Positions 3,537-36,760 of a stretch of 64,000 nucleotides of DNA are shown here, piece after piece. Each line of letters starts with the position of its first letter. Positions within the stretch are counted from its first letter, which is position 1. Source of the stretch: Natrinema marinum (GTDB lineage Archaea > Halobacteriota > Halobacteria > Halobacteriales > Natrialbaceae); assembly GCF_024296685.1 (NCBI RefSeq), contig NZ_CP100763.1:2480001-2544000 (forward strand). The letters run 5' to 3'. The position numbers and the translations under genes are program-made. The notes beneath the pieces are model-generated. The model ran no database searches and was not told the origin of the DNA. It was given only the letters and a program-made list of their open reading frames with translations.

Positions 3537-3537
3537 G

Positions 3538-15237: not shown

Positions 15238-15242
15238 CAGTG

Positions 15243-15848
15243 TTAGACCTCCACGACCTGCTTGTCACCGAATGTAGACGGGACGCTGATGCCGTAGGTG
15301 AACTGCGCACCGGACTGGTCGACCAGCGAGACGGACGCACTACCGCCACCTTCGAGCCCGTTTCCGCCGTTGATCGTCGCGACGTCGATAGCGAGTTTGA
15401 CGCGGTCGTCGGTGTTGAGCAGTTCGCTACTGTCACCGGCACCGGTGATGTTCTCGGTCGCGAACGTCGTTCCGCTCGAGAGCGACGCCGGCGTCGCAGT
15501 GCTGTTGTACGTAAGTGTCACGTCGTCTTTGTCGCTCGTGTACTGGACGGTCATAGCCGACAGGTCGATCGCTTCGGAACCCGCCGATTTCATGATCGTC
15601 ATATTGACCTTGTCGACGTAATCACCGGAAACGGTACCACTCGCGTGGACGACTTCGACCTGATTCGCGACGGCTTCCTGCGTCTCGGAACCGGTGTCGG
15701 ACGCCTGGCTCTGCAAGACACCAGCCGTGTTGATCAGTACGCCTGCCGCAATCGCCGCGACCAGGACCATCGCGATGAACACGATGAGCGTCCCGATCCC
15801 GACCTGCCCGCGGTCGTCGGTATCGTAGTCTGTTATTGCTTCGAACAT
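15243..15848 (-). CDS. Archaellin (archaeal flagellin), first copy
   Basis: 201 residues from [14 protein letters not shown] (ATG complement of 15846-15848). It has the same class III signal peptide and [13 protein letters not shown] core helix as the downstream archaellin, with sequons NMT, NST and NIT in the outer domain and the ending [13 protein letters not shown]. The frame is open further upstream, but that sequence is Arg-rich and lacks an archaellin-like start. As first gene of the operon it is the likely major filament subunit. It is divergent from flaCE across a 438-bp gap. Confidence 0.96.
15609..15818. repeat. Archaellin 5' direct repeat, copy in first archaellin
   Basis: Partner of 15001-15210. 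Synonymous positions are conserved here but not in the 3' halves of the two genes, as expected from recent duplication of the 5' part or from gene conversion. Confidence 0.85.
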
Positions 15849-16286
15849 TGTGTGTACACCCTGTATGCCGTCCTCGCCCGCATCGTGCCAGCTGCGTCGC
15901 GACACGAGCCGTCCGCGCGGACGCTCCCCGCCGGCTCGACGGGCCGAACCCGTCGCTCCCACCGTGGGCGTGGCGACGGGACACCGGTGGCGTCCCGTCG
16001 AAGGCCGGCGCGTGACGAGGTGTGTGGCATCACAGATTCTGGGGATGTACCCCAGCCGCCACAAGGGATAGTCGGAGTATCAAGCTCAGTATCACTTCAG
16101 TCGGCGTATCGAGCCTCGACTCACGACTCGAAACACGGACCGATTCGGCGGACGAACTCGAGCGTACACCTTTAGGACCGCTCTCGCTACAGGGGAGTAG
16201 CATGACCGCATCGTCCGATGGGGACCGCCACCACCGCTGCACTCGGCGATCGGCGACGAGCCGACTGACGCGTCCGCGGAGGTAAG
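15849..16286. other. Divergent control region between archaellins and flaCE
   Basis: 438 bp without a convincing gene. On the plus strand CCTTTAGG (16169-16176) could be a TATA box. A GGAGGT Shine-Dalgarno at 16278-16283 sits 3 nt before the flaCE ATG. A 27-codon Arg-rich frame (16202-16285) ends 1 nt before flaCE. On the minus strand no consensus TATA box lies close to the archaellin start, so the archaellin message may have a long leader. Confidence 0.5.
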
Positions 16287-17414
16287 ATGGATTTCGGACT
16301 CGACTCCCTGCGCGACCTCATCGAAGACTTCCTCAGTGCCAGCGGCGGCCGCCGGGGCCGCGAGCGCGAGCAGCGCCGACAACAGCAACCCGACGAACCC
16401 GCAGGCGACGCTGCGACGGCCGACGCGCAGGCACGCGATGACACTGGATCGACGACGGCCGAAACGACGGCCGACGCGGGAGCCGTCGAGGACGATACCG
16501 GGGGCGGCAGCGGAGGCGGTGGCGGCTTCTTCGGCCGCGGATCGGGAGCCACCGACGAGGACGACCTCGACGACCTCTACTACCGACTCGAGGAACTCGA
16601 GGAGGAACTCGAGGAGAAGGAGTCGACGCTTGGCACGGTACGCGACTCCCAACAGCAGGTCGCGGACCAAGTCGAAGAGATGAACGACACGGTCCGCCAG
16701 CTGCTCGGCGTCTACGATATGTTGACCGACGACGTGAACCCGTTCACCGGCGACGGTGAGGAACGGAAGGGGTTCGGCGTCTTCGGCGAGGACGAACCGG
16801 CGGCCGACGGCGGCACGCAGGCGGAACTCGGCCTCGAGGACTCGAAGCGATCGAGCAGCGAGGAGACGGTGTCGTTCGACGATCTGAAGGGCGTCATCGA
16901 AGACGCGGCGGCCGCACAGGCCGACGGAAGCGGTGGCGGCGAGCGGATCACGTTCGACGAGGACGACATCGGCAGGACTGACGACGGAGACGACGATACC
17001 CGCGTGGAAGTGCAGGCGACCGAGAACGTCGACGGCCCCGACACGGACGACGGGGGCGATGCGAGTGACGCAGACGACGGCTCGGACGTGACCCTCGAGA
17101 CGCTCGCGGACACGTACGCGACGGACATCATCGTCTTCGAGTGGCTGACCGAACTGGTGCGGACGGCTGGACCGGCGGCGACGCTGCGGGCGATCTCGTA
17201 CTACGCCGAGATCGGCTGGATCGACGACGGGGTCAAAGAACAGCTCGAGGCAGTGCTCAGTGGCCCGGATCTCGACATCCACGTCGATCCGGGAACGACG
17301 CCGGACGAACTGACCGCGGAGGATCACGCCGACAGCTACACGTACATCATGAAGCTCCAGGAGATCCACGAGACGAAACGGGAAGTCGAACCGGACGTCG
17401 AGTCGGGGGCGTAG
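16287..17414 (+). CDS. flaCE: Archaellum accessory protein FlaCE (FlaC-FlaE fusion type)
   Basis: 375 residues. A charged/low-complexity N-terminal region is followed by a coiled coil around residues 97-145 (YRLEELEEELEEKES, EEMNDTVRQLLGVYDML), which matches FlaC. A long acidic linker separates this from a C-terminal FlaD/E domain (~275-330: FEWLTELVRTAGPAATLRAI, YYAEIGWIDDGVKEQL). The same C-terminal domain occurs in the FlaD protein at 22629-23090. In Euryarchaeota FlaC/D/E form the cytoplasmic ring that couples chemotaxis signals (via CheF) to the motor. It has a strong GGAGGT ribosome-binding site and is the first gene of the fla operon. Confidence 0.93.
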   Translation: MDFGLDSLRDLIEDFLSASGGRRGREREQRRQQQPDEPAGDAATADAQARDDTGSTTAETTADAGAVEDDTGGGSGGGGGFFGRGSGATDEDDLDDLYYRLEELEEELEEKESTLGTVRDSQQQVADQVEEMNDTVRQLLGVYDMLTDDVNPFTGDGEERKGFGVFGEDEPAADGGTQAELGLEDSKRSSSEETVSFDDLKGVIEDAAAAQADGSGGGERITFDEDDIGRTDDGDDDTRVEVQATENVDGPDTDDGGDASDADDGSDVTLETLADTYATDIIVFEWLTELVRTAGPAATLRAISYYAEIGWIDDGVKEQLEAVLSGPDLDIHVDPGTTPDELTAEDHADSYTYIMKLQEIHETKREVEPDVESGA

Positions 17415-17452
17415 CCGTGACCCGAGTCGGCGGCAACGGAGGGTGATCGAAC

Positions 17453-17884
17453 GTGGGATTCAGTACCAGCGGGGCGACGGCGATCATCTTCGTCGGCGTC
17501 CTCGTCGCCGCGGGGATCGCCGTCCCCGTCCTCCAGACGGCCCAAGAGGAGCGACGGACGGCGATAGCAGAGCGCGACGATCGGGCGCTGGCGATGCGAA
17601 ACACCGCGATCGAGGTCGCGTCGTGGAGCTACAACGAAAGCGGGAACGACGATTTCACAATGGACGTGAACAACACCGGCTCGACGGTGCTCTCGGTCTC
17701 CGAGACGGATCTACTGGTCGACGGCGTCTACCAGGGGTCGTACGCGACGAGCGTCGACGGGACCGCCGACCGCGAACTGTGGCAGCCCGGCGAGACCCTG
17801 ACGGTGACGGTCTCGACGTCACGGCCTGACAGGGTAAAGATCGTGACCGAACACGGGATCGCCGACACGGTGACGGGGGTGTGA
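17453..17884 (+). CDS. flaF: Archaellum stator protein FlaF
   Basis: 143 residues from a GTG at 17453, preceded 4 nt upstream by GGAGGGTGATC, a near-perfect anti-16S match that fixes the start. One N-terminal membrane helix (GATAIIFVGVLVAAGIAVPV, residues ~7-26) is followed by a beta-sandwich ectodomain (MDVNNTGSTVLSVSETDLLVD). FlaF is thought to bind the S-layer and act as stator with FlaG in the pseudoperiplasm. It is followed 3 bp later by flaG. Confidence 0.92.
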   Translation: MGFSTSGATAIIFVGVLVAAGIAVPVLQTAQEERRTAIAERDDRALAMRNTAIEVASWSYNESGNDDFTMDVNNTGSTVLSVSETDLLVDGVYQGSYATSVDGTADRELWQPGETLTVTVSTSRPDRVKIVTEHGIADTVTGV

Positions 17885-17887
17885 TCG

Positions 17888-18352
17888 ATGGCAGGTGACT
17901 CCGTCTCGACGCTGATCCTCTTTATCGCCGCGATGCTCGTCGCCGCCGGCGTCGCCGGAACGCTGGTGACCAACGTCAACGAACTCAGCAACTCGGTCGA
18001 CACCCACAGCGCCGAAGTCACCGAGAAAATCGACACCGACATCGAGATCATCAGCGATCCGGGCAGCGAGGCGGTGTACAATGCCAGCGGGTCGGAAAAC
18101 GTCACGATCCTCGTGAAAAATACCGGCCAGGAGACGCTGCCAACGGACGGGACGGCAATCGACGTGCTGGTCAACGGCTCGTACGTCTCGAGCGACGGGT
18201 TCACCGTGACGGTTCGAGACGGCGGCGGCCCCTGGCGGGACGGGACGGTCGCCGAACTCGAGATCGACCGGTCGCTCGCGACGCCGGGCGAACACCGGGT
18301 CGTCGTGACCATCAACGGCGCGGAGGAGGTGTTCGAATTCTACGCACCATGA
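17888..18352 (+). CDS. flaG: Archaellum stator protein FlaG
   Basis: 154 residues. A single N-terminal helix (STLILFIAAMLVAAGVAGTL, residues ~7-26) is followed by a beta-rich ectodomain with NVTILVKNTGQETL and GEHRVVVTINGAEEVFEFYAP at the end. It is homologous in layout to FlaF, and together they form the stator filament anchored to the S-layer. Its stop codon overlaps the flaH start (ATGA-type overlap at 18349-18352), which indicates coupled translation. Confidence 0.92.
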   Translation: MAGDSVSTLILFIAAMLVAAGVAGTLVTNVNELSNSVDTHSAEVTEKIDTDIEIISDPGSEAVYNASGSENVTILVKNTGQETLPTDGTAIDVLVNGSYVSSDGFTVTVRDGGGPWRDGTVAELEIDRSLATPGEHRVVVTINGAEEVFEFYAP

Positions 18353-19077
18353 CCGACTACTACTCCATCGGACTGAGCGGGCGGGATCGCGTGAACAACG
18401 CCATCGGGGGCGGCATCCCCGAAGGGAGCATCGTCCTCATCGAGGGACAGGACGGCGCGGGCAAGAGCGCGCTCTCCCAGCGGCTCTCCTACGGGATGGC
18501 GACCGAGGACGCCTTCGTCACCTACGTCTCGACGGAGCTCGAGTCCTGGGAGTTCGTCCAGCAGATGAACTCGCTGTCCTACGACGTGGTCGACCTCCTG
18601 CTGGGCGAACAGCTGTTGTTCCTCCACGCGAACGTCGACACGCACAACGACGGGCGGGAACGCCAGCTGCTGGCGCGACTCGCGAGCGCGGAGACGCTCT
18701 GGAAGGCGGACGTGGTCTTCGTCGACACGCTCTCGGCGCTGCTGCGCAACGACCCGAACTACGAGGCGGTGATCGAGGAGGGCGACGAGGATCACGTCAT
18801 TCAGCGGCTCGTCACGTTCCTGCGCCAGATGACCATGCGGGACAAGGCCGTCGTCCTGACGGTCGACCCGACCAGCGTCAGGGAGGACGCGTTGCGCCCG
18901 CTACGGAACGTTGCGGACGTCTACTTCGAGATCGAGACGAACACCGTCGGTCAGGAGATCAGGCGGAAGATCCTGGTCCGGCGGTTCCAGAACATGAAGA
19001 ATCCGGTCGACGACTCCATCGGCTTCAGCGTTCAACAGGGCCGCGGGGTCTCGATCGTCAGCAGGACGGTGGCATAA
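18349..19077 (+). CDS. flaH: Archaellum regulatory ATPase FlaH
   Basis: 242 residues, a RecA/KaiC-like ATPase. Walker A is EGQDGAGKSALSQ (residues ~28-40) and Walker B is VVFVDTLSALL (~122-132). The Glu normally used for catalysis is not evident after the Walker B Asp, in line with FlaH binding ATP with little or no hydrolysis. FlaH forms a ring under FlaI/FlaJ at the motor base. It overlaps flaG by 4 bp and abuts flaI directly. Confidence 0.95.
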   Translation: MTDYYSIGLSGRDRVNNAIGGGIPEGSIVLIEGQDGAGKSALSQRLSYGMATEDAFVTYVSTELESWEFVQQMNSLSYDVVDLLLGEQLLFLHANVDTHNDGRERQLLARLASAETLWKADVVFVDTLSALLRNDPNYEAVIEEGDEDHVIQRLVTFLRQMTMRDKAVVLTVDPTSVREDALRPLRNVADVYFEIETNTVGQEIRRKILVRRFQNMKNPVDDSIGFSVQQGRGVSIVSRTVA

Positions 19078-20757
19078 ATGTCCGACTTCGGCACCGCACG
19101 ACTCGAGAACGAACTGGATGCACTGGCCGCAGAGTACCCCCATCTCCGAGAGCACCTCGACTGGTTCTACGAGGAGTACGGCGAGTACCCGAAGCTCATC
19201 GACGAGCCGTCGGGCGAGTGGGAGTCAGACAGGCCGAACGTCATCTACGAGGCCGAGGCGCCGATCTTCTGTCACGTCCACGGCGATCTGGGGATCGACA
19301 CCACCTACTACTGCGTCGAGCCGACGCTCGAGGACGAGGACAAGGCGCTGTACGACCGAATTCGACAGCGCATTCTGGACAAGAGCGTCACGCGGCCGGC
19401 CCCGGGTGACAACGAGGAGTTCGAAGAGCACTTGGACGAGCTACTGGACGAAGTCGTCGAGATCACGTCGGGGATCACCGGCCAGTCGATCGGCCGGCTC
19501 AAGTCCATCGGCGGGAGCAAGGTCTCCCTTTCGAAGAACCAGTTCGACCGGCTGCGCTACCAGCTTCAACGCGACATCGTCGGCCTCGGGCCGCTTGAGC
19601 CGGTGATGGTCGACCCGGCCAACGAGGACATCCACGTCATCGGCCCGAAGCAGTGTTACCTCGATCACGGCACCTACGGCATGATCTCGGCGACGGTCGA
19701 CTTCGGGACTCCCGAGGAGTTCGAACAGTGGCTGCGGAACATGGGCGAGCGGATGAACCACCCGGTCAGCGACTCCGACCCGGTGATCGACGCGACGCTG
19801 CCCGACGGCTCGCGTATCAACATCATCTACTCCGACGACGTCTCCGTGCAGGGGCCCTCGCTGACCATTCGCCAGGGCGAGGAGATTCCGCTGTCGGTCT
19901 TCCAGATCACGAAGTGGGGAACGATCAGCCCGGAACTGGCGGCCTATCTCTGGCTCTGCCTCGAGAACGAACAGACCGTCTTCGTCGTCGGGGAGACGGC
20001 GTCGGGGAAGACGACGACGCTGAACGCCGCGCTCTCGTTCATCCCGCGGGACGCGAAGATCTACACCGCAGAGGACACCGCAGAGGTCATCCCGCCTCAC
20101 GATACCTGGCAGCAGCTACTCACTCGGGAAGGGTCGGGCGACGAATCGGCTGACGTGGACATGTTCGATCTGGTCGCGGCCGCGCTGCGTTCGCGACCCG
20201 ACTACATCATCGTGGGCGAGGTCCGCGGGGAGGAGGGCCAGATGGCCTTCCAGGCGGCCCAGACCGGTCACCCCGTCATGCTGACGTTCCACGCCAGCGA
20301 CATCGTCTCGATGATCCAGCGCTTTACCGGGGCCCCGATCAACGTCCCCGAGACGTTCATGGACAACTGCGACGTGGCGCTGTTCCAGAACCGCGTCAAG
20401 CAGGGCGACGACGTCCTCCGGCGGGTCACCTCGGTCCAGGAGATCGAGGGCTACTCCGACTACGAGGGCGGCGTCGTCACCCGACAGGCGTTCAAGTGGG
20501 ACCCCCGCGACGACGAGGTTTCCTTCACCGGTCGGAACAACTCCTACGTCCTGGAAGAACAGATCGCGACGCTGCTGGGCTACCAGGACACCCGGCTGAT
20601 CTACGACGAACTCGATCGCCGCGCGGAGATCATCCGCCAGCTCATCGACGCCGACGTGCTGGGCTACCACGAGGTCAACAAGGCGATCGCCGACTTCCAG
20701 CGCGACGGCCTCGAGGGGCTGCCCATCCGGATCAGCGGCATCGATCAGTTCGCCTGA
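19078..20757 (+). CDS. flaI: Archaellum assembly and rotation ATPase FlaI
   Basis: 559 residues, a type II/IV secretion-type ATPase. The N-terminal domain extends to ~residue 230. The CTD follows with Walker A VVGETASGKTTTLNA (~302-316), an Asp box (IYTAEDTAEVIPPH), Walker B YIIVGEVRGEEG and a His box (HPVMLTFHASD). It powers filament assembly and switches to drive rotation. The start immediately follows the flaH stop, and flaJ begins 9 bp downstream. Length is normal for haloarchaeal FlaI. Confidence 0.97.
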   Translation: MSDFGTARLENELDALAAEYPHLREHLDWFYEEYGEYPKLIDEPSGEWESDRPNVIYEAEAPIFCHVHGDLGIDTTYYCVEPTLEDEDKALYDRIRQRILDKSVTRPAPGDNEEFEEHLDELLDEVVEITSGITGQSIGRLKSIGGSKVSLSKNQFDRLRYQLQRDIVGLGPLEPVMVDPANEDIHVIGPKQCYLDHGTYGMISATVDFGTPEEFEQWLRNMGERMNHPVSDSDPVIDATLPDGSRINIIYSDDVSVQGPSLTIRQGEEIPLSVFQITKWGTISPELAAYLWLCLENEQTVFVVGETASGKTTTLNAALSFIPRDAKIYTAEDTAEVIPPHDTWQQLLTREGSGDESADVDMFDLVAAALRSRPDYIIVGEVRGEEGQMAFQAAQTGHPVMLTFHASDIVSMIQRFTGAPINVPETFMDNCDVALFQNRVKQGDDVLRRVTSVQEIEGYSDYEGGVVTRQAFKWDPRDDEVSFTGRNNSYVLEEQIATLLGYQDTRLIYDELDRRAEIIRQLIDADVLGYHEVNKAIADFQRDGLEGLPIRISGIDQFA

Positions 20758-20766
20758 GCACAGACC

Positions 20767-22494
20767 ATGTCGACCGACACCCAGTCCGCGCCCGATATGA
20801 GCGCTCGAACGGCTCTCGAGTCGCTCAACCGGGCGTACGCGAACATGGAGATGTCCGCGTCGCGGTACCTCCTGTTGATCGTCTTCCCCTCGTTCGTCTT
20901 CTTCCTCGGGACTGGCGTGGCGGCGCTCGTCCTCGGGCTCTCCTTGATGCTCGCGCTTCCGGTCGTGCTGTTGGGCGTGCTGGCGATGGTGGTCGCGGTC
21001 ATCTACCCGAAACTGGCCCAAGACCGCAAACGCAAGCAGGTCCGCCAGCGCTTTCACCTCTTCTTGACTCATATCACCGTCCTCTCGATGACGAACATCA
21101 ACCGCGTCGAGATCTTCCGCACGCTGGCGGAGGAAGACGAGTACGACGCCTTAGCCGAGGAGATGGGCCACCTCGTCGCGATGGTCGACACCTGGAACCA
21201 GAGCTTAGACGACGCCTGTCGACTGCGGGCGAAGCAGACGACGAGTCCGCTCCTGACGGACTTCCTGGAGCGACTGGCGTACACGGTCGGCGGCGGCCAG
21301 CAGATCAGCGAGTTCCTGATGGACGAACAGGGGACGATCATCCAGCAGTTCGTCACCCGATACGAGGCGGACCTGGCGAAACTCGACGTGATGAAGGAGC
21401 TGTACATGTCGATGATGCTGTCGGTGGCGTTCGTCCTCGTGTTCGCCATCGTGCTCCCGATCCTGATCGGAATCAGCCCGACGCTGCTGATCGCCGGGAC
21501 GATCGTCATGTTCTCGATCGTTCAGGCGGGGTTCGTCTACGCGATCCACGTCGTCTCGCCGTACGATCCCATCTGGTACATCGAGGAGACCGAAGGGACC
21601 GGCCCCTTGACGCGGATTCCGCGGGCGCTCGCGATCGGCGCCGGCTGTAGCCTCCTCCTCGCGGTCGTCATGGTGCTCGCGGTCCTCGGAATCGTCCCAG
21701 GGATCGCGAGCCGCGTCCCACTGCCGATCATGGCCGCGCTCCCCGTGACGCCGCTGCTCCTGCCGGGCTGGCGGATGCGCCAGGAAGAACAGAAGGTGAA
21801 GGTCCGCGACGGGGAGTTCCCGAGCTTCATCCGCGCGCTCGGTGCCGTCGAGAGCGTCAAGCAGACCTCGACCGGGAGCGTCCTCGAAAGTCTTCGGCGC
21901 AAGGACTTCGGGGCATTGACCGACAACGTCGACGCACTCTACAAGCGGCTCAACATGCGGATCGACGATGTCCGCTCCTGGCGACTGTTCGCCGCCGAAA
22001 CCGGCTCCTATCTCATCCAGAAGTTCGGCGACATGTACGTCGTCGGCCGACAGATGGGCGGCGACCCGCAAGTGCTCGGGCAGGTCATCAGCGAGAACCA
22101 AAACGAGGTGCTGAAAGTTCGCGAAAAACGGGAGCAAGCGACGATGACGCTGATCGGCGTCCTCTACGGCATCACCGCGGCGGCCGTCTTCTCGTTTTTC
22201 GTCGGCCTCGAGGTCGTCGAGATCATGATGAATATCACGAGCGAAATGAATCTCCAAGAGCAGAGCAACGTCGCCGGCAACCTCCTCAGCACCGAACAGT
22301 ACGATATTCGGACCATCGAGTACCTGCTCTTGTTGACGATCCTCATCAACGCCGCGCTCTCGGCGGTCATGATCCGGATCACCGACCGCGGCCACATCAT
22401 CAGCGGGCTGGTCCATTTCGTGTTCATGACCTGGCTCGGGGCCGTGATCGCGGTCGTCACGCAGTACGTGGTCAACGCGGTCATCAGCGTCTGA
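20767..22494 (+). CDS. flaJ: Archaellum membrane platform protein FlaJ
   Basis: 575 residues. Two T2SF-type cytoplasmic domains alternate with hydrophobic helix groups at about residues 37-80, 220-265, 290-340, 465-490 and 520-570. The soluble stretches contain RQRFHLFLTHITVLSMTNINR and the paralogous second copy EFPSFIRALGAVESVKQTSTG. FlaJ is the membrane core that contacts FlaI and archaellin. It is the last gene of the tightly packed block; flaD follows after 134 bp. Confidence 0.95.
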   Translation: MSTDTQSAPDMSARTALESLNRAYANMEMSASRYLLLIVFPSFVFFLGTGVAALVLGLSLMLALPVVLLGVLAMVVAVIYPKLAQDRKRKQVRQRFHLFLTHITVLSMTNINRVEIFRTLAEEDEYDALAEEMGHLVAMVDTWNQSLDDACRLRAKQTTSPLLTDFLERLAYTVGGGQQISEFLMDEQGTIIQQFVTRYEADLAKLDVMKELYMSMMLSVAFVLVFAIVLPILIGISPTLLIAGTIVMFSIVQAGFVYAIHVVSPYDPIWYIEETEGTGPLTRIPRALAIGAGCSLLLAVVMVLAVLGIVPGIASRVPLPIMAALPVTPLLLPGWRMRQEEQKVKVRDGEFPSFIRALGAVESVKQTSTGSVLESLRRKDFGALTDNVDALYKRLNMRIDDVRSWRLFAAETGSYLIQKFGDMYVVGRQMGGDPQVLGQVISENQNEVLKVREKREQATMTLIGVLYGITAAAVFSFFVGLEVVEIMMNITSEMNLQEQSNVAGNLLSTEQYDIRTIEYLLLLTILINAALSAVMIRITDRGHIISGLVHFVFMTWLGAVIAVVTQYVVNAVISV

Positions 22495-27799: not shown

Positions 27800-28003
27800 C
27801 CGCCCGCCGGATCGCCCGCACCCCGCCGCGCGATCAGCGACCAGTGGACGTTCGAACTCGTCGAGGAGTTCTCGAACGAGTTCTTGGAGGAAGTCGACGC
27901 CTTCGAGGCGAGCGTCAGGGAGGAGATGGCCGACGGCGTTGATTACGTGACCGAGCGCCGGCAGAAGCGCCGGCTTCGCGAGCGCGCCGAAAACGACGAT
28001 TGA
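27800..28003 (+). pseudogene. Start-less open frame, possible gene remnant
   Basis: The frame continues for 67 codons after the beta-CASP stop to a TGA at 28001-28003. It has no ATG or GTG before codon ~44; only a TTG near 27888 could start it. The product is strikingly haloarchaeal: WTFELVEEFSNEFLEEVDAF, then VREEMADGVDYVTERRQKRR and an acidic end. That composition is unlike the shadow frames around it. It could be the 3' remnant of a deleted gene or a very small protein with a non-standard start. Confidence 0.35.
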
Positions 28004-28047: not shown

Positions 28048-28434
28048 CTACTCGTCTTTCCAGATGATCCCGTCGGTCGACGAGGTCAACACGGTCTCTC
28101 CGTCCCCGTTCTCGCAGACGACGTCCGACGTGAACTCGTAGCGGTCGTCACGCTCGACGACCGTGTCGAACGTCGATCGGCACGTGATCGGTTCGCCGGT
28201 GTAGACCGGCCGATGGAAGTTGAACTCCATCGTACTGGCCAGCACTTCGTTATCGCTTCCCAGCTTCGTCGGCAGCGTCGCGGTCAGCAACCCTTGTACC
28301 ATCACTCGGCCGTCCTCGTCCGGCTCGGTGTGCCGGGCTTGGTCGTCGCCGGAGAGTTCCGCGAACCGCCGTACGTCTTCGACCGTGAACGTTCGCTCGA
28401 ACGTTCTCGTCTCGCCTTCGATTGGCTGCGTCAT
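28048..28434 (-). CDS. MaoC-family (R)-specific enoyl-CoA hydratase-like protein
   Basis: 128 residues from MTQPIEGETRTFERT (ATG complement of 28432-28434). Single hot-dog domain. The hydratase-2 active-site stretch is FAELSGDDQARHTEPDEDGR, with the Asp and His of the catalytic dyad in the usual spacing. VMVQGLLTATLPTKLG and the strand MEFNFHRPVYTGEPITC follow. Members hydrate 2-enoyl-CoA to (R)-3-hydroxyacyl-CoA, for polyhydroxyalkanoate supply or fatty acid breakdown. No pha gene is adjacent, so the pathway is uncertain. Confidence 0.85.
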   Translation of the reverse strand: MTQPIEGETRTFERTFTVEDVRRFAELSGDDQARHTEPDEDGRVMVQGLLTATLPTKLGSDNEVLASTMEFNFHRPVYTGEPITCRSTFDTVVERDDRYEFTSDVVCENGDGETVLTSSTDGIIWKDE

Positions 28435-28522: not shown

Positions 28523-29788
28523 TCAGAGCTCGCCGCCGCAGAACGGACAGAAGTTGTAGACCCCGTCGGAGGGGATCTCTTTCTCGCAGTCGGGACACCG
28601 ATCGACGGGCGTTTCGTCGGCGCCGTACTGATCGAAGTCGGCGGTGAAGATCTGCGTATCGGAGCCGGTCCCGGTGTCGTCGGTGCTCGAGTCAGCGACG
28701 GCACCGGCGGTCTCGGCGGCCCCAGCGGTCCCCGCGGCGTCGTCGTTCCCCTCGCTCGGAGATCCGTCGTCTCGCGCCGTCGCGTCCGAATCGTCCGCGC
28801 TTCGATCGTCGGTAGCCGACGACGCCGCGGTGCTGTCGTCAGCGGAGGCTCCCGCGTCGCCGTCGCGGTCGTCACTCGAGCGACTGCGACGCGTAGCCCC
28901 CGATCCCGGGCTGGACGGGACGACCGCGTTCGACGGGTTGCGAGGTGTCTGCCGGGCCGTGCCGCGAGATGAGCGGCCGGACTCCGACGACGCGCGGCCG
29001 CTCGCCGCGCCGGCGGGCCGTCGGCCGGACGACTCCGTTCGGTTCCGAAGCCGGTGAGCGAGCCGCGACAGCCGGGGTCGCGGAAGCGACCAGTTGGGCC
29101 GCTCCCACCGCGACTGCGTCCCGAGAAGGGCTTCAACGCCGTAGAGCGCCGTGACGAGCAGCGGAACGGCAATCACGGCGGTTCGGACGATCTGGGACTC
29201 CGGTCCGGCAACGACCGTCTCGAGCGTCCGGCCGATCGGCCGATCGGGGCCGAGCGTTGCGTTGGCGAGCGCGACGAGCGCGACGACGGCGGGGAGCCCC
29301 GTGAGGGAGCCGACCACTAGACTCGTTCGGCCGCGATCCTCGCGAAGCGAGACGAGCGCGATCGTTCGGTACGCGAACGCGTGTGCGGCGACCGCAACGA
29401 GAAGAAAGAGCGGCGACGACAGCCGTAGCGCGCCGGTGTCCCAGACGGCGTACCCGATCGGACAGACGATACCGACGGCGGGAACGAGCAACAGGGGCAG
29501 CGGACTGACCACGTCGAAGCGATCGTCGACGTAGCGACGATAGCCGGCGACGAGGGACCCGGCACCGACCACGAGTACCAGTAGCGTTCCGAACGCGAGG
29601 ACGGCCGTCCCGAGTTCCGCGACCGCGTCACCGCCACCCGCAGCCGTGACCGCCGTCCGGAAGGCGGCGAAGCCGACATCGGCGAGCACCAGAGTGAGCA
29701 CCGTCGCCAGCACCGCGACGGGAACCGCGACCAGCTCCAAAAGCGCGAGCGTTGCGTGGTCGGTGCCAGATCCGTTCGGGAGGCGCAT
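28523..29788 (-). CDS. Polytopic membrane protein with cytoplasmic C-terminal zinc ribbon
   Basis: 421 residues. Six or so hydrophobic helices occupy residues 1-235. A ~150-residue low-complexity Ser/Asp/Arg linker follows, then a C-terminal C4 zinc ribbon: RCPDCEKEIPSDGVYNFCPF with the last Cys in CPFCGGEL. The TATA-like ACTTATTTAC on the minus strand lies ~28 bp upstream, which predicts a nearly leaderless message. It is divergent from the zinc-ribbon/FHA gene that opens the kinase-phosphatase cluster, so it may be the membrane partner of that system (inference). I see no transport or enzyme signature. Confidence 0.75.
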   Translation of the reverse strand: MRLPNGSGTDHATLALLELVAVPVAVLATVLTLVLADVGFAAFRTAVTAAGGGDAVAELGTAVLAFGTLLVLVVGAGSLVAGYRRYVDDRFDVVSPLPLLLVPAVGIVCPIGYAVWDTGALRLSSPLFLLVAVAAHAFAYRTIALVSLREDRGRTSLVVGSLTGLPAVVALVALANATLGPDRPIGRTLETVVAGPESQIVRTAVIAVPLLVTALYGVEALLGTQSRWERPNWSLPRPRLSRLAHRLRNRTESSGRRPAGAASGRASSESGRSSRGTARQTPRNPSNAVVPSSPGSGATRRSRSSDDRDGDAGASADDSTAASSATDDRSADDSDATARDDGSPSEGNDDAAGTAGAAETAGAVADSSTDDTGTGSDTQIFTADFDQYGADETPVDRCPDCEKEIPSDGVYNFCPFCGGEL

Positions 29789-29813
29789 GATATCCAGACA
29801 TATTGTGTTTGAC

Positions 29814-29823
29814 GTAAATAAGT
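29814..29823 (-). promoter_or_regulatory. TATA box of the zinc-ribbon membrane protein
   Basis: ACTTATTTAC on the minus strand, centred ~30 bp before the ATG at 29788. This is the spacing expected for a leaderless haloarchaeal transcript. Confidence 0.55.
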
Positions 29824-30015
29824 AGTGTTCGGTGCTATCGGGATCGCAGATCGCTCCCGAACGGGCTCAAGCCCTCGTCAGATATACCACTCTTCTGAAC
29901 GATAGGGCGGAATCTACCCAGCAGCGTCCGTGAAGCGGGCCGCGACGGATCAATAAGAATACGCCAGTTCTGGCATACTTTTTTCTATTATGACTGAGAA
30001 AGTGCGCTGAATACC

Positions 30016-31068
30016 ATGGCAGAACAAACCGAATTCAGCTGCGTCTCGTGTGAAACGACGTTCGATCCGGTACCGAACGGCGGCTTCTGTCCGGACTGTG
30101 ATACGCCACATCCGGACTACGAAGCGCCGGCCGACGACGCCGACGAGGAACCCGAGACCGAGGACGACGTCGCCGACGACGGCGACGACTCGGCCGAGTT
30201 AGAATACGACGAGGACGAAAGCGAAGACGAGGCCGACGACGAGCCCGTCGTCGAGGACGCCGAAGACGAGGCGGCAGACGAACCCGCCGACGAAGACGAC
30301 GACACAACCGATGACGAGGCAGACGCGTCGGAACCCGAGGCCGACGAAGATGAGGCCAACGAAGACGAGGCCAACGAAGACGAGACCGACGAACCGGCGA
30401 CGGTCGAGTGCCAGTCCTGTGAGTCGTCGGTCGACGCGTCGGCGTCGTTCTGCCCGAACTGCGGCGAGGAACTCGCCGAAGAGGCCGACGACGAGCCGGT
30501 CGAACTCGAGGCCTGCCCGGACTGTGGCAACTCGGTCGACGACGAGTCGTTCTGTCCGAACTGCGGCACGGATCTGGACGCGATCCGCGAGGCCGGCGGC
30601 GTCGACGACGATGCGGCGGCGGCTGAAGAGGAGGACGAGACGGCTGCCGACGACGGGGCGGAAGACGAGAGCGACGCGGCCGACGACGACGCGAGCGAAG
30701 ACGAAGCGGCGGAAGACGACGGGGCGGAAGACGACGGGGCGGAAGACGACGCCGACGACGTTCCGACGGAAGTCACCCTCGAGATCGACGGCGAATCGTA
30801 CACGTTCGGCGACGGCGACGTGTTCGGCCGGCGGGACGAGGAGTGGCTCGCCGACCTCGTCGCGGCCAGCGGCGGCCGGGAAGAGGCCCGCTACCTCTCG
30901 AGTGACCACCTCGAGTTCTCGGCCGAGGACGACGGCGTCTACGTGACCGACGTGAGTACGAACGGGACGGCGCTCAACGGGTCTGCCATGGACGGCTCCA
31001 CCGAGAAACTCGAGGACGGCGACACGCTGACGCTCGCCGATCGCGCGGAGATCGACGTGACGCTGTAA
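30016..31068 (+). CDS. Triple zinc-ribbon protein with C-terminal FHA domain
   Basis: 350 residues. Three C4 ribbons occur: one at the N-terminus (Cys 9 and 12, then 25 and 28: FCPDC) and a pair in the middle (CQSCESSVDASASFCPNC and CPDCGNSVDDESFCPNC). Long Asp/Glu-rich linkers separate them. The last ~100 residues form an FHA domain: FGRRDE, then SSDHLEF, then the TNGTALNG phosphothreonine-pocket motif. FHA domains bind phosphothreonine peptides, so this protein is a candidate substrate reader or scaffold for the kinases downstream. No membrane segment is visible. It begins the plus-strand signalling cluster. Confidence 0.88.
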   Translation: MAEQTEFSCVSCETTFDPVPNGGFCPDCDTPHPDYEAPADDADEEPETEDDVADDGDDSAELEYDEDESEDEADDEPVVEDAEDEAADEPADEDDDTTDDEADASEPEADEDEANEDEANEDETDEPATVECQSCESSVDASASFCPNCGEELAEEADDEPVELEACPDCGNSVDDESFCPNCGTDLDAIREAGGVDDDAAAAEEEDETAADDGAEDESDAADDDASEDEAAEDDGAEDDGAEDDADDVPTEVTLEIDGESYTFGDGDVFGRRDEEWLADLVAASGGREEARYLSSDHLEFSAEDDGVYVTDVSTNGTALNGSAMDGSTEKLEDGDTLTLADRAEIDVTL

Positions 31069-31201
31069 CGTCGGCGACGCGAGCCGCGTGCCTAGAGCGC
31101 GTAGTCGCAGCAATTCAGCCCGCCGGATTCGTCGGTCGGGCACGATGAGGCGCCGGTTTTTCCCGCTTCGCTGGATCGGATGGAATTCTTGTCAGGACCG
31201 A

Positions 31202-31210
31202 GTAAATATT
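31202..31210 (+). promoter_or_regulatory. Putative TATA box of the VWA gene
   Basis: GTAAATATT, centred ~53 bp before the VWA ATG. This predicts a ~25-nt leader and suggests that the VWA-kinase-phosphatase-kinase genes have their own promoter, separate from the zinc-ribbon/FHA gene. Confidence 0.45.
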
Positions 31211-31258
31211 GGGGAAAAAGTTATCAGATCATCCTGAGACATACGAGCAGTTACCGCA

Positions 31259-32464
31259 ATGACGACCGACCTCTCAGTCGAACTCAATCGGCCGTACGTA
31301 CCAGCGAACGGTGGCGGAATTAGCTGCGAGCTGACGATCGAACCGGACGAGACGCAACGCGACGAGCCAGCCGAGCGACACATCGCGCTCTGTATCGACA
31401 GCAGTGGCTCGATGTCCTACAAGAAGATGGACCAGGTCCGGGACGCGACAAATCTCGTCTTCGGGCTGCTGAACGACCAGGACTATCTGAGCATCGTCAC
31501 GTTCGACACCGAAGTCGACGTCATCATGGAAGCGACCCGCTGGGGCGACATCGAGCGAAGCGAGGCCGAAGCGAAGCTCGACGACATCGAAACCCGAGGC
31601 GGGACCGACATCTACGCCGGCCTCGAGGAAGCCCGGAAGTCGCTGCGCGGCTTAGACGAAGGCGAGGGGATCGCAAAGCGCATCCTGCTGCTCTCGGACG
31701 GCCGCGACATCCGCCTCGAGGAGCCGGATTTCGAGCCGCTCGCGAAGGCGACCGCCGACGGCGGCACCTCCATCTACTCCGCCGGCATCGGCTCGAACTA
31801 CGACAAAGGGATCATCCGCACACTCGGCGAACACTCGCAGGGCCAGTGGGCCCACGTCGAGAACCCGACGGACATCCGGTCGTTCTTCGGGGATGTCGTC
31901 CAAGAGGCGTCGACGGTCGTCGCGAACAACCCCGAACTGGTGATCGACCTGGCGGAGGGCTGTGAAGTCGGCGACGTCTACCGCCGGCTCCCGCAGGTCC
32001 AAGAGGTCGACGTCGAGTACGCGGGCAGCCGCGCGGTCATCGGACTCCCGGACCTGCTCGACCGCGAGAAACAGCAACTCGTCCTGACGATGGACGCTCC
32101 GGCGGGCGAACTCGAGACGACGGCGGCGATCGCGGACGTGGAACTGCAGGCCGGTTCGTCCTCTGCGACGACCGACATCTCGGTGAGTTACACCGACGAC
32201 GAGTCGAAGCTGGCGACCCAAAACGAGGACGTTACCCTCACTTACCACGAGACCGACCTCCGGACGCGCATCGCCCACGCCGAAGAGGACGACCTCGACG
32301 ATGTCAAGGACCTGATCGACGAGACCGAAGTCATCACCGGCGAGACGGAGATCACGGACGCGCTCCGGGAGAACGTGACCCGGATCGAGGAGGGTGACGA
32401 GGAAGAGGTCCGCGAGATTCAAGAAGACACCACGGTCGTCTACGACGCCGGTCGGTTCGACTGA
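31259..32464 (+). CDS. VWA-domain protein with intact MIDAS (TerY-like component)
   Basis: 401 residues. A short N-terminal beta segment leads into a von Willebrand factor A domain with a full metal-ion-dependent adhesion site: CIDSSGSMSYKK (Asp ~47, Ser ~49, Ser ~51), GGTDIYAGLE (Thr ~119) and LLLSDGRD (Asp ~143). A beta-rich region follows (~220-330), then a helical acidic C-terminus (LDDVKDLIDETEVITGETEI). There is no signal peptide, so it acts in the cytoplasm, as TerY-type VWA proteins do. It is followed by kinase, PP2C and kinase genes, so it likely serves as metal-dependent scaffold of that set. Confidence 0.88.
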   Translation: MTTDLSVELNRPYVPANGGGISCELTIEPDETQRDEPAERHIALCIDSSGSMSYKKMDQVRDATNLVFGLLNDQDYLSIVTFDTEVDVIMEATRWGDIERSEAEAKLDDIETRGGTDIYAGLEEARKSLRGLDEGEGIAKRILLLSDGRDIRLEEPDFEPLAKATADGGTSIYSAGIGSNYDKGIIRTLGEHSQGQWAHVENPTDIRSFFGDVVQEASTVVANNPELVIDLAEGCEVGDVYRRLPQVQEVDVEYAGSRAVIGLPDLLDREKQQLVLTMDAPAGELETTAAIADVELQAGSSSATTDISVSYTDDESKLATQNEDVTLTYHETDLRTRIAHAEEDDLDDVKDLIDETEVITGETEITDALRENVTRIEEGDEEEVREIQEDTTVVYDAGRFD

Positions 32465-32502
32465 GTGTAGACGACCGCGACGGACGATTCGAATACATTA
32501 CA

Positions 32503-33777
32503 ATGAGCATGTCAGAGCCAACAGTCGGGGACGAACTCGCCGGCCGGTACGAGATCCGCGAACAGCTCGGGCGAGGCGGGTTCGGCGTCGTCTGGGGCGC
32601 CGACGACGCCGAAACGGGTCGCCCGGTCGCACTGAAACACCCCAACTACAACGGCAACGCGCCGGACGACCTCGTCGACAAGTACTTCGAGCGAGAGACG
32701 GACGTGCTGGAGGACATCCGCGAGGCGGGCGGGCACCCGAACATCATGGGATACCACGGGACCGAACGCGGGTTCGGGATGCCGGTGCTCGTCGTCGAGT
32801 CGATCGACGGCGAGGAACTGGGTACCGTCGTCCGAAACGACGATCCGATCACCGACGACGAGAAGGTCCGCGAGATCGGCATCGGGATCTGCGACGCGCT
32901 ATCCTTCCTCCACGATCACGACCTCATCTACCGCGACCTAAAGCCCGACAACGTCATGATCACCGGCTCCGGAACGCCGAAGATCATCGACTTTACCACT
33001 GCCAAGGGCTTCGTCCCCGAACGAGGCGGCGCCGAGTTCACGACGGGCGAGGCCGCGAGTTCCGCGGCCGGAGAATCGAACGCCGACTCGACCGTGCCAG
33101 GTGAGTTCAAACCGCCGGAGCTGAATCAAGGCTCGGAACAGCGCCAGGGCCCCTGGAGCGACGTTTACTCGATCGGGAAGATCCTCTGCTTTCTCAAGGT
33201 CGGCTGGGTGCCCGACGCCGACGGCGTCGCGCCTTCGGACTTCGGTATCGAGACGGCACCGTACATGGACGAGATCATCGAGCGCTCGACCCGCCACGAC
33301 ACCGTCGACCGCTATCCCAACGCGTCCGTGCTCAAGCGGTCCCTCGAGGAGCGCGACGCGACGATGCCGACGCAGGCGTCGGTCCGCTGGCTCGGCCGCG
33401 ACGAGCGATGGACGATCAGCCCGGGCGACACCATCGGCCGAAAGACGGCGGACGGACCGCGGCCCTCGATCATGCTCGCGGACGACCGCCACAAGGCGCT
33501 GTCCGCCGTCCACTGTCGGTTCGACACCGACGAGGCCGGCAACTGGCGCGTGATCGACACCAGCCTCAACGGCACCTACATCAGCAAACACGACGAGCGG
33601 GAGTGGAACCTCCTGCTCTCGGAAACCGGACAGGAACGTCAGCGACGCCGCGGCGAGTCGGTCCCCGACGACCTCGAGGCCGCGAGCGCCCTCGAGCCGG
33701 GCGACACTATCGCCCTGGTCAGTCCCTCGTATCCGGAACGGTTCTACTTCCAGTTCGACCACCAACCCGCGGAATGA
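32503..33777 (+). CDS. Serine/threonine protein kinase with C-terminal FHA domain
   Basis: 424 residues. Kinase domain: glycine loop LGRGGFGVV (~22-30), Lys in VALKH (~45), catalytic loop YRDLKPDNVM (Asp ~146, Lys ~148, Asn ~151), and metal-binding Asp in IIDFTTAKG (~164), where DFG is DFT. The APE-like motif is KPPEL. From ~300 a C-terminal FHA domain follows (TIGRKTADGPRPS, SAVHCRF, SLNGTYISK), with the extra segment EWNLLLSETGQERQRRR also found in the two next proteins. No membrane helix. Its stop overlaps the PP2C start (ATGA), so kinase and phosphatase are translationally coupled. Confidence 0.92.
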   Translation: MSMSEPTVGDELAGRYEIREQLGRGGFGVVWGADDAETGRPVALKHPNYNGNAPDDLVDKYFERETDVLEDIREAGGHPNIMGYHGTERGFGMPVLVVESIDGEELGTVVRNDDPITDDEKVREIGIGICDALSFLHDHDLIYRDLKPDNVMITGSGTPKIIDFTTAKGFVPERGGAEFTTGEAASSAAGESNADSTVPGEFKPPELNQGSEQRQGPWSDVYSIGKILCFLKVGWVPDADGVAPSDFGIETAPYMDEIIERSTRHDTVDRYPNASVLKRSLEERDATMPTQASVRWLGRDERWTISPGDTIGRKTADGPRPSIMLADDRHKALSAVHCRFDTDEAGNWRVIDTSLNGTYISKHDEREWNLLLSETGQERQRRRGESVPDDLEAASALEPGDTIALVSPSYPERFYFQFDHQPAE

Positions 33778-35456
33778 CCATGGAATACGCGAGCACCATC
33801 GACATCGGCGCGCGAAAGCAACGACGCGACGGAATCAACGAAGACGCGATCGCGACGGCGGTCTTCGAGAACCACCACCGGCAGACGGATCGGCCGGTCG
33901 GGATCTTCGTTCTCGGCGACGGCGTCGGTGGCGAGGCCTGCGGCGACGTAGCTGCCTTCCTGGCGACGACCGTGGTCAGAAAGCGACTCACGGACGAACT
34001 CCTCGGCCCCGGCACCGATCTCCCGGAGGCGTTCGAGATCGACTCCTACGAGCCGACGCCGCCGACGGTCGACACCGCCGACGGATCGGCCGGCTCCATC
34101 TCCGAGGAGCGGATTCGGGCCGCGATTCAGGACGGGATCGACGCCGCACAGCAACACGTCCAGGAGTTCGCCCGCACCATCGGCGGCCGCCCGGCGACGA
34201 CGCTCGTCGTCGGCGTCTACGTCGACGGGATACTCCACTACGGCTGGGTCGGCGACAGCCGGATTTACGTCATCAACGAGCGCCACGAGGAGACGCGACA
34301 ACTCACGCGAGACCACGCCGTCACGAACGACCTGCTCGAGCGCGGCGAGATCGACGACGAGGTGTACGCCCGCATCCACCCCGACGCGACGGCGATCACG
34401 AACGCCGTCGGCGGCTCGGCACACGGCCAGCCGAGCGTCGACGTCGAGTTCGGCACTGCGGAGATCTACCGCGACGACATCGTCCTGTTCACCAGCGACG
34501 GGCTGATCGACGCGTTCCCGGACAACCGCTCCCTTCGGCAGGCTTACCAGCAGGCGTCCGACGTGGACGCCGTCCGCGAGGAGATCCGCGAGTCGCTCGT
34601 CACCGAAGACGAGATCCGGGAGATCGTCCTCGAGGCCGAAGACCTCCACGACGCCGTCGAACGGCTCGTCTCCTTTGCCAACGAGCGCGGCGGCAAGGAC
34701 AACCTCTCGATCACGCTCGCGCGGGATCCGGGGACGACGCCCTCGCCGGACACGCCGCCGTTCAGAGGCGAGATCGACTCCCGCGAGCTGACCGACCGCG
34801 AGACGGTCATCGAGCCGGCCGGGAGCGACGATGGCACAGACGCGACTGCGGAGCCGGACTCGGCTAACACAGAACGCGAGTCGGACGGGACGGTGGACTC
34901 GGACTCCGACGGGTCGAGCGCCGCGCCGAGGGAGGGCGGCACCGCGAAAGTGGTCTCGGCCGGCGAGGGCGAGCCGCCATCGGCGGCGGTCACGATTGCA
35001 GGCGACGAGACCATCTTCGAGGTCGTCGACGGCGTCACCATCGGCCGGACGACGGACGACCGCGAGCACACTCCCAACATCGGCCTCGTCGTCGACGAGG
35101 ACGATCCCGTCGAGTCGAACCACGCCCGTCTCGAGTTCGACGACGGCGACTGGCACGTTCGCGACATCAGCGCCGTCGGCACGTTCGTCGAGGAGACCGA
35201 CGGGCAGTGGGCGGTGCTCCTCTCGAGCGAAGGGGCGGCGCTGCACCGAGAGCACGGGTTCGATCCGACCGCCGCCGCGGAGGGCGAGCTGTCGGAGACG
35301 TCGCGACTGCGGGACGGGACGGCGTTCACGCTCGAGGACCCCCGGAAGGAGAACCCGATCACGTTCCGCTTCTTCTCGTCGGTCGACCACGCCCGGAACC
35401 GGACGCGCTGGAGCGATTCGACCGGCGGACGACCCTTCAGCGGGTTCCGGACGTAA
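33774..35456 (+). CDS. PP2C-family protein phosphatase with C-terminal FHA domain
   Basis: 560 residues from ATG 33774, overlapping the kinase stop. The PP2C core occupies roughly residues 5-320: RRDGINEDAI (metal Asp ~24), VLGDGVGGEACGD (Asp ~49), WVGDSRIYVI, LTRDHAVTNDL, FTSDGLIDAF and GGKDNLSITLA, so all metal ligands are visible. An Asp/Ser/Glu-rich linker (~325-405) leads to an FHA-like domain (VTIGRTTDDRE, ESNHARLEF, SAVGTFVEE) in which the usual Asn-Gly is Val-Gly. It shares the WAVLLSSEG insertion with the kinases. It would reverse phosphorylation by the flanking kinases. Confidence 0.92.
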   Translation: MTMEYASTIDIGARKQRRDGINEDAIATAVFENHHRQTDRPVGIFVLGDGVGGEACGDVAAFLATTVVRKRLTDELLGPGTDLPEAFEIDSYEPTPPTVDTADGSAGSISEERIRAAIQDGIDAAQQHVQEFARTIGGRPATTLVVGVYVDGILHYGWVGDSRIYVINERHEETRQLTRDHAVTNDLLERGEIDDEVYARIHPDATAITNAVGGSAHGQPSVDVEFGTAEIYRDDIVLFTSDGLIDAFPDNRSLRQAYQQASDVDAVREEIRESLVTEDEIREIVLEAEDLHDAVERLVSFANERGGKDNLSITLARDPGTTPSPDTPPFRGEIDSRELTDRETVIEPAGSDDGTDATAEPDSANTERESDGTVDSDSDGSSAAPREGGTAKVVSAGEGEPPSAAVTIAGDETIFEVVDGVTIGRTTDDREHTPNIGLVVDEDDPVESNHARLEFDDGDWHVRDISAVGTFVEETDGQWAVLLSSEGAALHREHGFDPTAAAEGELSETSRLRDGTAFTLEDPRKENPITFRFFSSVDHARNRTRWSDSTGGRPFSGFRT

Positions 35457-35473
35457 CCGCCGAGCCCGACGTA

Positions 35474-36691
35474 ATGTCAGGTGAACTCCGTCCCGGATCC
35501 GTCGTCGACGATCGGTTTCGACTCGAGGAGCGCCTCGGCGCCGGCGGGCTCGGAACGGTCTGGCGGGCGATCGACCGCGAACGAGAGCAGCCGATCGCAC
35601 TCAAGTGTGAGACCGACGGCGCTCACGATCGAGAACAGATCCGAGCACACTTTCGGGGGGAACTGCAGTGGTTCCGCCGGTTCGAAGGCGGGCCGGTTCC
35701 GGGCTCGCTCGTCCACTTTCTCGACGGATCGGTCGGCGGTGAGACGGCGTACATCGCCACGGAGCTGATCGACGGCGGCTCGGTCGCCGAACGCTTCGAC
35801 CGCGGAGACACGGAGCCGTCGCTCGAGGCCGTCCGCGCGATCGGCGGCCCCGTCTGCAGGGCGCTCGCGTTCCTCCACCGCAACGGCGTCGCCCACCTCG
35901 ATCTGAAGCCGAGTAACGTGCTCGTTCGTCGCTCCGGGCAGCCGGCCGTGATCGATCTGAACGCCGCGGTGTCGACCGAGACGGAGCCGGACGTGCGCTT
36001 CGGGGAGGACCCGTTCAAGGCGCCCGAACTGACGCGGACGAACGGCCGCGCGTCGCCGATCGGACCGCGGTCCGACGTGTACGCGCTCGGCGTGCTGATC
36101 GCGTTTCTGTTGACCGGAACGGCCGCGGCGGAGACGCCCACGTCGACGGCGCGGACGGGTGCCGCGTTGCGATCGGCCGGCGCGGACCCGCCGTCCGCCA
36201 TCGTCGACGCGATCCGGCGGGCGACCGCACCGGACCCTCGCGATCGGTTCGACGACGCGGCCGAACTGTCCGACGCCCTCGTTCCCGGTCTCGAGGTGCC
36301 GGCGCGGTCTGCCCGCCTCGTCCACGAGCCGTCCGGACGGACGGTTCGCGTTCGCCCCGGAGACACCTTCGGTCGCTGGGCCGCGGACAGCCGGATTCCG
36401 ACGGTCGTGCTCCCCGACGACGAGCGGTTCCTCGATCCGGAACACGCCGTCCTCGAACACGACGGCGTCGCCTGGCACCTGCGAGATCGGAGCCTCAACG
36501 GCACCGCCGTCCGCCGGGACGCCGGCTGGGAGTTCCTGCTCTCTCGAGACGGTCGCAAGCAGCGCCAGAGCGCCGACGCGCCGCTTCCCCGGCCCGATCC
36601 GCCGACATCGACCCGGCTCTCCGACGGCGATCGAATCGCTCCCGTCAGTCCCGACTACGGCTGTCGGATAACGTTTCGAACCGAGGCGTAA
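35474..36691 (+). CDS. Second Ser/Thr kinase-like protein with C-terminal FHA domain
   Basis: 405 residues from ATG 35474. Kinase domain: LGAGGLGTVW (~21-30), Lys in IALKCE (~44), catalytic loop HLDLKPSNVL (Asp ~143, Lys ~145, Asn ~148). The metal-binding motif is VIDLNAAV (DLN for DFG), and the activation segment is short with an intact APE (KAPEL). The C-terminal FHA domain (TFGRWAADSR, LDPEHAVLEH, SLNGTAVRR) has the same EFLLSRDGRKQRQ insertion as its neighbours; the usual Ser before His is Asp-Pro-Glu. It may be a weak kinase or pseudokinase partner of the first. It ends the cluster; the next gene is convergent. Confidence 0.9.
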   Translation: MSGELRPGSVVDDRFRLEERLGAGGLGTVWRAIDREREQPIALKCETDGAHDREQIRAHFRGELQWFRRFEGGPVPGSLVHFLDGSVGGETAYIATELIDGGSVAERFDRGDTEPSLEAVRAIGGPVCRALAFLHRNGVAHLDLKPSNVLVRRSGQPAVIDLNAAVSTETEPDVRFGEDPFKAPELTRTNGRASPIGPRSDVYALGVLIAFLLTGTAAAETPTSTARTGAALRSAGADPPSAIVDAIRRATAPDPRDRFDDAAELSDALVPGLEVPARSARLVHEPSGRTVRVRPGDTFGRWAADSRIPTVVLPDDERFLDPEHAVLEHDGVAWHLRDRSLNGTAVRRDAGWEFLLSRDGRKQRQSADAPLPRPDPPTSTRLSDGDRIAPVSPDYGCRITFRTEA

Positions 36692-36760
36692 CGGCGCGAC
36701 TCGAGCCGTCGGTGGCGGGACCGGTATCCGCGTCGAGGGCGGCTGGAAACGGTCGTATCG

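Follow-up and report, generated by a model that had tools for sequence, protein, structure and literature searches.

A discrete, loss-prone haloarchaeal gene cassette that probably encodes an ArnAB-type phosphothreonine switch

The window, by which we mean the whole 64,000-nucleotide stretch of the Natrinema marinum genome analysed here, contains five consecutive genes on one strand, together with a divergent gene for a membrane zinc-ribbon protein. An earlier note made from the sequence alone had described this arrangement, and the coordinates and the domains of all these genes were confirmed (Pfam, NCBIfam). The genes, and the shorter features within them to which we refer below, are the following.

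28523-29788, minus strand: membrane protein with several transmembrane helices, a long disordered linker and a C-terminal zinc ribbon; divergent, core member of the module
28538-28597, minus strand: C-terminal zinc ribbon of the membrane protein (CxxC...CxxC), four Cys invariant
28646-28657, minus strand: membrane-protein motif T378-Q-I-F, a phosphothreonine docking site predicted from motif conservation
30016-31068, plus strand: ZnR-FHA, three zinc ribbons with acidic linkers and a C-terminal FHA domain (Pfam DZR 1e-9, FHA 6e-7); predicted ArnA-like reader
30040-30099, plus strand: first zinc ribbon of ZnR-FHA, at its N terminus, through which it may dock on the VWA protein (C9, C12 and C25 invariant in 19 orthologues)
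31259-32464, plus strand: ArnB-like VWA scaffold with split beta-sandwich, VWA domain, helical bundle and tail (Pfam VWA 6e-20)
32426-32446, plus strand: C-terminal tail of the VWA protein, DTTVVYD with T391/T392, a phosphothreonine docking site predicted from conservation of T392
32503-33777, plus strand: KF1, Hanks-type kinase with C-terminal FHA domain (Pfam Pkinase 6e-28, FHA 1.5e-6); predicted writer
33774-35456, plus strand: PP2C phosphatase with linker and degenerate C-terminal FHA domain (PP2C_2 4e-9; Stp1-type 2.7e-37); predicted eraser
34800-34811, plus strand: PP2C linker motif E343-T344-V-I (residues 343-346), a phosphothreonine docking site predicted from motif conservation
35474-36691, plus strand: KF2, second Hanks-type kinase with FHA domain (Pfam Pkinase 1.7e-28, FHA 4e-4); optional member

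KF1 and the PP2C gene overlap by a 4-bp ATGA if the first ATG of the latter is used; several orthologues match its second ATG at 33780. The MIDAS of the VWA protein is intact, as had been noted, with D47, S49, S51, T116 and D147 invariant in every orthologue that covers them. Both kinases keep the catalytic Lys and the two Asp (K45, D145 and D163 in KF1, where they are conserved), and the PP2C motifs NED, DGxGG, GDSR, SDGL and GGKDN can be read in the translation. At another locus (L058, 5993-7240), the activation segment of a KF1-type kinase is interrupted by a zinc ribbon (DZR match at 162-193). Pfam-grade FHA matches in the whole genome (3.77 Mb, one contig) are confined to the module, and KF1 and KF2 give the only Pkinase matches above the Pfam cut-off, which supports the description of the module as self-contained, within this genome and for FHA domains and Hanks kinases. 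The four FHA domains counted earlier are all recognizable, but a full phosphothreonine pocket is found in two only, those of ZnR-FHA and KF1. The KF1 pocket (R313, S334, N356) is kept as Arg, Ser and Asn across both groups of orthologues described below, and in ZnR-FHA the Arg and Asn occur in nearly all members, while the Ser of close relatives is replaced by His in distant ones. In KF2 of the window, Asp replaces the pocket Ser. The FHA domain of the PP2C protein lacks the phosphothreonine-binding Ser and Asn in every close relative and is missing altogether from most members of the distant group; that of the window lies below the Pfam threshold and is recognizable by NCBIfam FhaB (0.001), and a distant orthologue (L056) carries a clear one (8e-8).

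The limits of the module can be drawn by comparison within the genus. The flanking genes for a beta-CASP hydrolase and a luciferase-like protein were found in 21 of 21 congeners searched. Six module-free congeners (L078-L083) show a precise empty site, at which sequence corresponding to window positions 27821 to about 27990 runs on, almost without a gap, into that of position 36759, and the genome G208 has a full module at the same site. What is left in G542 (L084, about 2853-4383) is the last part of the membrane gene, fused to a KF2 gene without a start and with an internal stop, all genes in between being gone, which is the picture of a decayed module. Empty sites and remnant together indicate that the cassette is discrete, spans about 28.5-36.76 kb and has been lost at least once. 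A MaoC-like gene at 28048-28434, between a small-gene remnant and the module, is not present at this place in G208 or in the empty sites, and is not part of the cassette. The small-gene remnant itself (27821-27999) is what remains, at the 3' end, of a small conserved gene that immediately follows the beta-CASP hydrolase gene. The part encoding its N terminus is missing from the window genome; G208 and L036 have an intact copy of about 144 aa. This segment was also considered as a structured RNA and rejected as such, since Rfam returned nothing and it is the 3' end of this gene.

Among 293 genomes of the haloarchaeal order, 39, from five families and 14 of 87 genera, have a VWA orthologue (E < 1e-70, a cut-off set after seeing the natural gap before the next matches near 1e-45). 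KF1 orthologues (E < 1e-30) accompany the VWA gene in 39 of 39 genomes, always as the adjacent gene, and both are absent from the other 254 of 254, a clustering far beyond chance. Co-conservation of the module genes across haloarchaeal genomes, on which the earlier note had made its reading depend, is borne out by this pairing and by the conserved gene order. Two groups can be distinguished. In the close group (VWA 60-91% identical) the order is divergent membrane gene, ZnR-FHA, VWA, KF1, PP2C and in some cases KF2, and Natrinema salsiterrestre (L004), whose VWA protein is 91% identical, has the same arrangement as the window. In the distant group (about 41-47% identical) the order is VWA, KF1, PP2C, ZnR-FHA and membrane protein. 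In L041 and L042, the membrane gene follows PP2C on the opposite strand. KF2 is absent from L002, L041, L042, L044 and the main distant group. The membrane gene adjoins the module in 11 of 11 close relatives and in 8 of the 9 main distant ones, and hhalign relates the membrane proteins of one group to those of the other (Prob 99.1). In L003 and L050, gene calling had missed this gene and it was recovered by tblastn or by its motif; L052 lacks one. Against the PDB, the tail of the membrane protein gave a weak zinc-ribbon match and nothing else. The five genes of the earlier parts list are present and linked, but the gene content of relatives makes the divergent membrane protein a core member and KF2 an optional one.

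The tree of the VWA proteins and that of KF1 have the same broad shape. G191 and G286 have one module of each group per genome, and the close-type copy of G191, with its near twin L002, is nested in the trees among copies from another family, which indicates transfer of the cassette. Holding two modules of different groups (L044, L048), one of them apparently transferred, G191 raises the question of how cross-talk is avoided. In our sample, no full-length relative was found elsewhere in the phylum outside the haloarchaeal order, and a search for plasmid-borne copies of the module returned distant VWA proteins only. More distant haloarchaeal VWA proteins of similar length (L060, L062, L063, L064, L065) lie near Hsp70-like genes, with GrpE- or DnaJ-like genes in places, and represent a neighbourhood of a different, VWA-chaperone type. 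On a Gemmatimonadaceae contig (L005), divergent genes encode a Hanks kinase and a VWA protein (30% identical), which shows that VWA-kinase pairs occur in bacteria too. We found no earlier description of such a cassette in the open-licence literature; the Thermoproteus tenax genome paper, considered as a precedent, does not mention FHA or VWA.

A profile built from 19 VWA orthologues matched the Sulfolobus ArnB structure best among PDB entries (8s05_A, 2.2e-20; 8S05 was confirmed to be the ArnAB complex), followed by 4cn8, 4fx5 and ArnE (5A8J). It is mostly the VWA domain that accounts for the match to ArnB; in addition, the C-terminal helical regions align colinearly over a second, weak stretch. 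The predicted secondary structure (two strands, VWA, more strands, four helices) follows the order described for ArnE and ArnB. Foldseek ranked 8S05, 4fx5 and 5A8J at the top, with low TM-scores for an AlphaFold model of low confidence (pLDDT 57), which is poor because only five sequences were usable. The Pfam family ArnB_C had no match among the 19 members at E values up to 1, and this model, built from Sulfolobales, may miss haloarchaeal tails. The ZnR-FHA profile matched ArnA (its zinc finger in 8s05_C, 2.8e-4; 5a8i, 7e-4), and also the FHA domains of Rad53 and GarA, that of GarA being among the best. As judged from these profiles, the ZnR-FHA gene corresponds to ArnA. The closest relatives of the VWA and ZnR-FHA proteins are best taken to be Sulfolobus ArnB and ArnA rather than TerY-P or type VI secretion proteins. 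The comparison with the latter two, made in the earlier note, was off the mark, as ArnB and ArnA are closer by profile and ArnB also, with a low-confidence model, by fold. Since 4fx5 and 5a8j have the same architecture, an ArnB-like structure does not prove an ArnB-like function, and ArnE does not bind ArnA (PMC12852372). The ArnB-like architecture has been noted in Halorubrum, where such a cassette was not described (PMC12852372). In Sulfolobus, the zinc finger of ArnA docks unphosphorylated ArnB, and the ArnA FHA domain binds C-terminal threonines of ArnB once these are phosphorylated by ArnC (PMC12852372).

Three of the partners share a short T-x-[IV] motif. In the linker of the membrane protein, T[RQ][IV][FY] is present in all 17 of 17 sequences (0.04 expected after shuffling), the linker or tail of PP2C has [DE]T.[IVLM] in 23 of 24 (4.4 expected), and T.[IV] falls within the last 20 residues of the VWA protein in 22 of 24 (5.5 expected). 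The observed counts were reached by 0 of 2000 shuffles, where shuffles and neighbouring genes form the background, the patterns were picked after viewing the sequences and the shuffles leave shared ancestry in. At position 392 of the VWA protein, T is found in 22 of 24 orthologues and S in 2 of 24. The sites sit in otherwise unconserved, low-complexity, disordered or terminal stretches, and the motif is kept even between groups with more than half of their residues different. ZnR-FHA orthologues have no such conserved motif. In the form T-x-[IV]-F, the motif of the three partners presumably resembles the GarA site beyond its ETTS. Conservation of T-x-[IV] in three partners is new here, and the sites are predicted to be docking sites for FHA domains.

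We consider it reasonably probable that this discrete, loss-prone cassette encodes a phosphothreonine switch of the ArnAB type, together with a kinase, a phosphatase and a membrane partner of its own. The core idea of the earlier note, that haloarchaea have here a phosphothreonine switch built on a VWA scaffold and read by FHA domains, remains the best reading, while its analogues were off and its parts list needs changing. What the data show is the gene content and its co-conservation, the limits of the cassette, the residues of active sites and pockets, the relationship to ArnB and ArnA and the conservation of the motifs. As to phosphorylation, binding partners, direction of the switch, signal and output, we infer a course of events such as the following. 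In the resting state, ZnR-FHA would be loosely tethered to the VWA scaffold via a zinc ribbon. KF1, kept near its substrates by its own FHA domain, would phosphorylate the T-x-[IV] threonines in the VWA tail, the PP2C linker and the membrane-protein linker, and the FHA domains of ZnR-FHA and KF1 would then bind these phosphothreonines, so that a tight complex forms, in part at the membrane. PP2C, itself brought in by the motif that it carries, would undo this, and KF2 may serve as an added input.

An alternative is that the module regulates the archaellum as a direct functional counterpart of ArnAB. A complete archaellum locus (two archaellins and ArlCDE, F, G, H, I and J-type genes) lies at 14638-22494, about 6 kb from the module. 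It had been overlooked in the earlier reading, though the known archaeal FHA/VWA pair regulates archaella, and the claim that the 64-kb window has no Ter or secretion gene stands for Ter (TerD gave 0 matches genome-wide) but not for the archaellum, a type IV-pilus-like machine. We regard this alternative as rather unlikely. The archaellum locus is near the module in G208 as in the window genome, and archaellins are found in 2 of 2 module-positive against 2 of 13 module-negative genomes of the genus (Fisher p 0.057) and, over all genomes, in 35 of 39 against 180 of 254 (p 0.011). This association disappears at the level of genera (10 of 14 module-positive, 53 of 73 module-negative, p 1.0), and in most other lineages the module lies far from archaellum genes. 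Moreover, G273 (one contig, 99% complete) has the module and no archaellin match, and G249 has kept the archaellum and lacks the module. The module may control the archaellum in the window genome, but the comparison across genera does not support this as its general function.

Patchy presence, cassette-like loss and one inferred transfer would also suit an anti-phage or other kinase-using conflict system, and PADLOC reports matches to mad6 and PD-T4-6 kinases. We find this reading very improbable, as these matches are limited to the generic kinase domain (NCBIfam MAD6 scores 91-116 bits against a cut-off of 460), the cassette encodes no nuclease, NTPase or other effector, and no constant defence neighbours occur among the relatives. 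That the module is a TerY-P triad or a type VI secretion-type switch is hardly credible: the same enzyme classes are present (VWA, PP2C, kinase, FHA) and ZnR-FHA weakly matches TagH (VI_FHA), but at 29.9 bits against a cut-off of 120.25, TerD is without a match in the genome, TerY_C matches neither the VWA protein of the window nor the 19 VWA members, and ArnB is the closest solved relative of the VWA family. Nor were type VI secretion genes found among the module neighbours or in the window annotation; by these tests the set is not a known Ter- or secretion-linked module, which the earlier note had named as the other outcome that would go against its reading.

Returning to the ArnAB-type switch, we suggest, more tentatively, that the cassette might be a portable and complete archaeal phosphothreonine pathway, in which a single kinase writes, and FHA domains read, one short T-x-[IV] docking code found on scaffold, phosphatase and membrane protein, so that a switch of the ArnAB type would come to act at the membrane. 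Because the genes of all these partners (scaffold, writer, eraser, reader and membrane protein) travel together, the whole switch can be studied as one unit. As the docking sites are predicted to single residues, the assignments of writer, reader and target are directly testable, and haloarchaea include genetically tractable species. ArnAB-type signalling would thereby extend beyond the Sulfolobus lineage.

Compared with known systems, the PpkA/PppA/Fha set of type VI secretion likewise combines kinase, PP2C and FHA reader, but the cassette is without such secretion genes and has a VWA scaffold and a membrane zinc-ribbon protein. The bacterial TerY-P triad shares the VWA, PP2C and kinase classes; here there are no Ter genes and no TerY_C, FHA domains are found on the kinases and the phosphatase, and the VWA protein is ArnB-like. 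Mycobacterial GarA and corynebacterial OdhI are FHA proteins with an ETTS motif phosphorylated by Hanks kinases (PMC12321487), and the likeness is a Thr that lies outside the FHA domain, within a motif that is short, conserved and acidic. In GarA, motif and FHA domain are on one protein and metabolic enzymes are controlled, whereas in the module motifs and readers are on different proteins. In Sulfolobus acidocaldarius, ArnA and ArnB (Saci_1210/Saci_1211; PDB 8S05, 5A8I; PMC6509490, PMC12852372) are likewise encoded by adjacent zinc-ribbon-FHA and VWA genes. ArnB shares with the module VWA protein a split beta-sandwich, a C-terminal helical bundle, an intact MIDAS and C-terminal threonines, though its acceptors are ETT sites (T353, T363, T375) and the module motif is T-x-[IV]. 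Two enzyme classes of the module, Hanks kinase and phosphatase, also act on the Sulfolobus pair, but the Sulfolobus network is described as the ArnA/ArnB pair with separately described kinases and phosphatase, the latter a PP2A. In the haloarchaeal module, kinase and phosphatase are encoded within the cassette, with a PP2C as the phosphatase, an FHA domain on the kinase, three zinc ribbons in ZnR-FHA and a membrane zinc-ribbon protein added.
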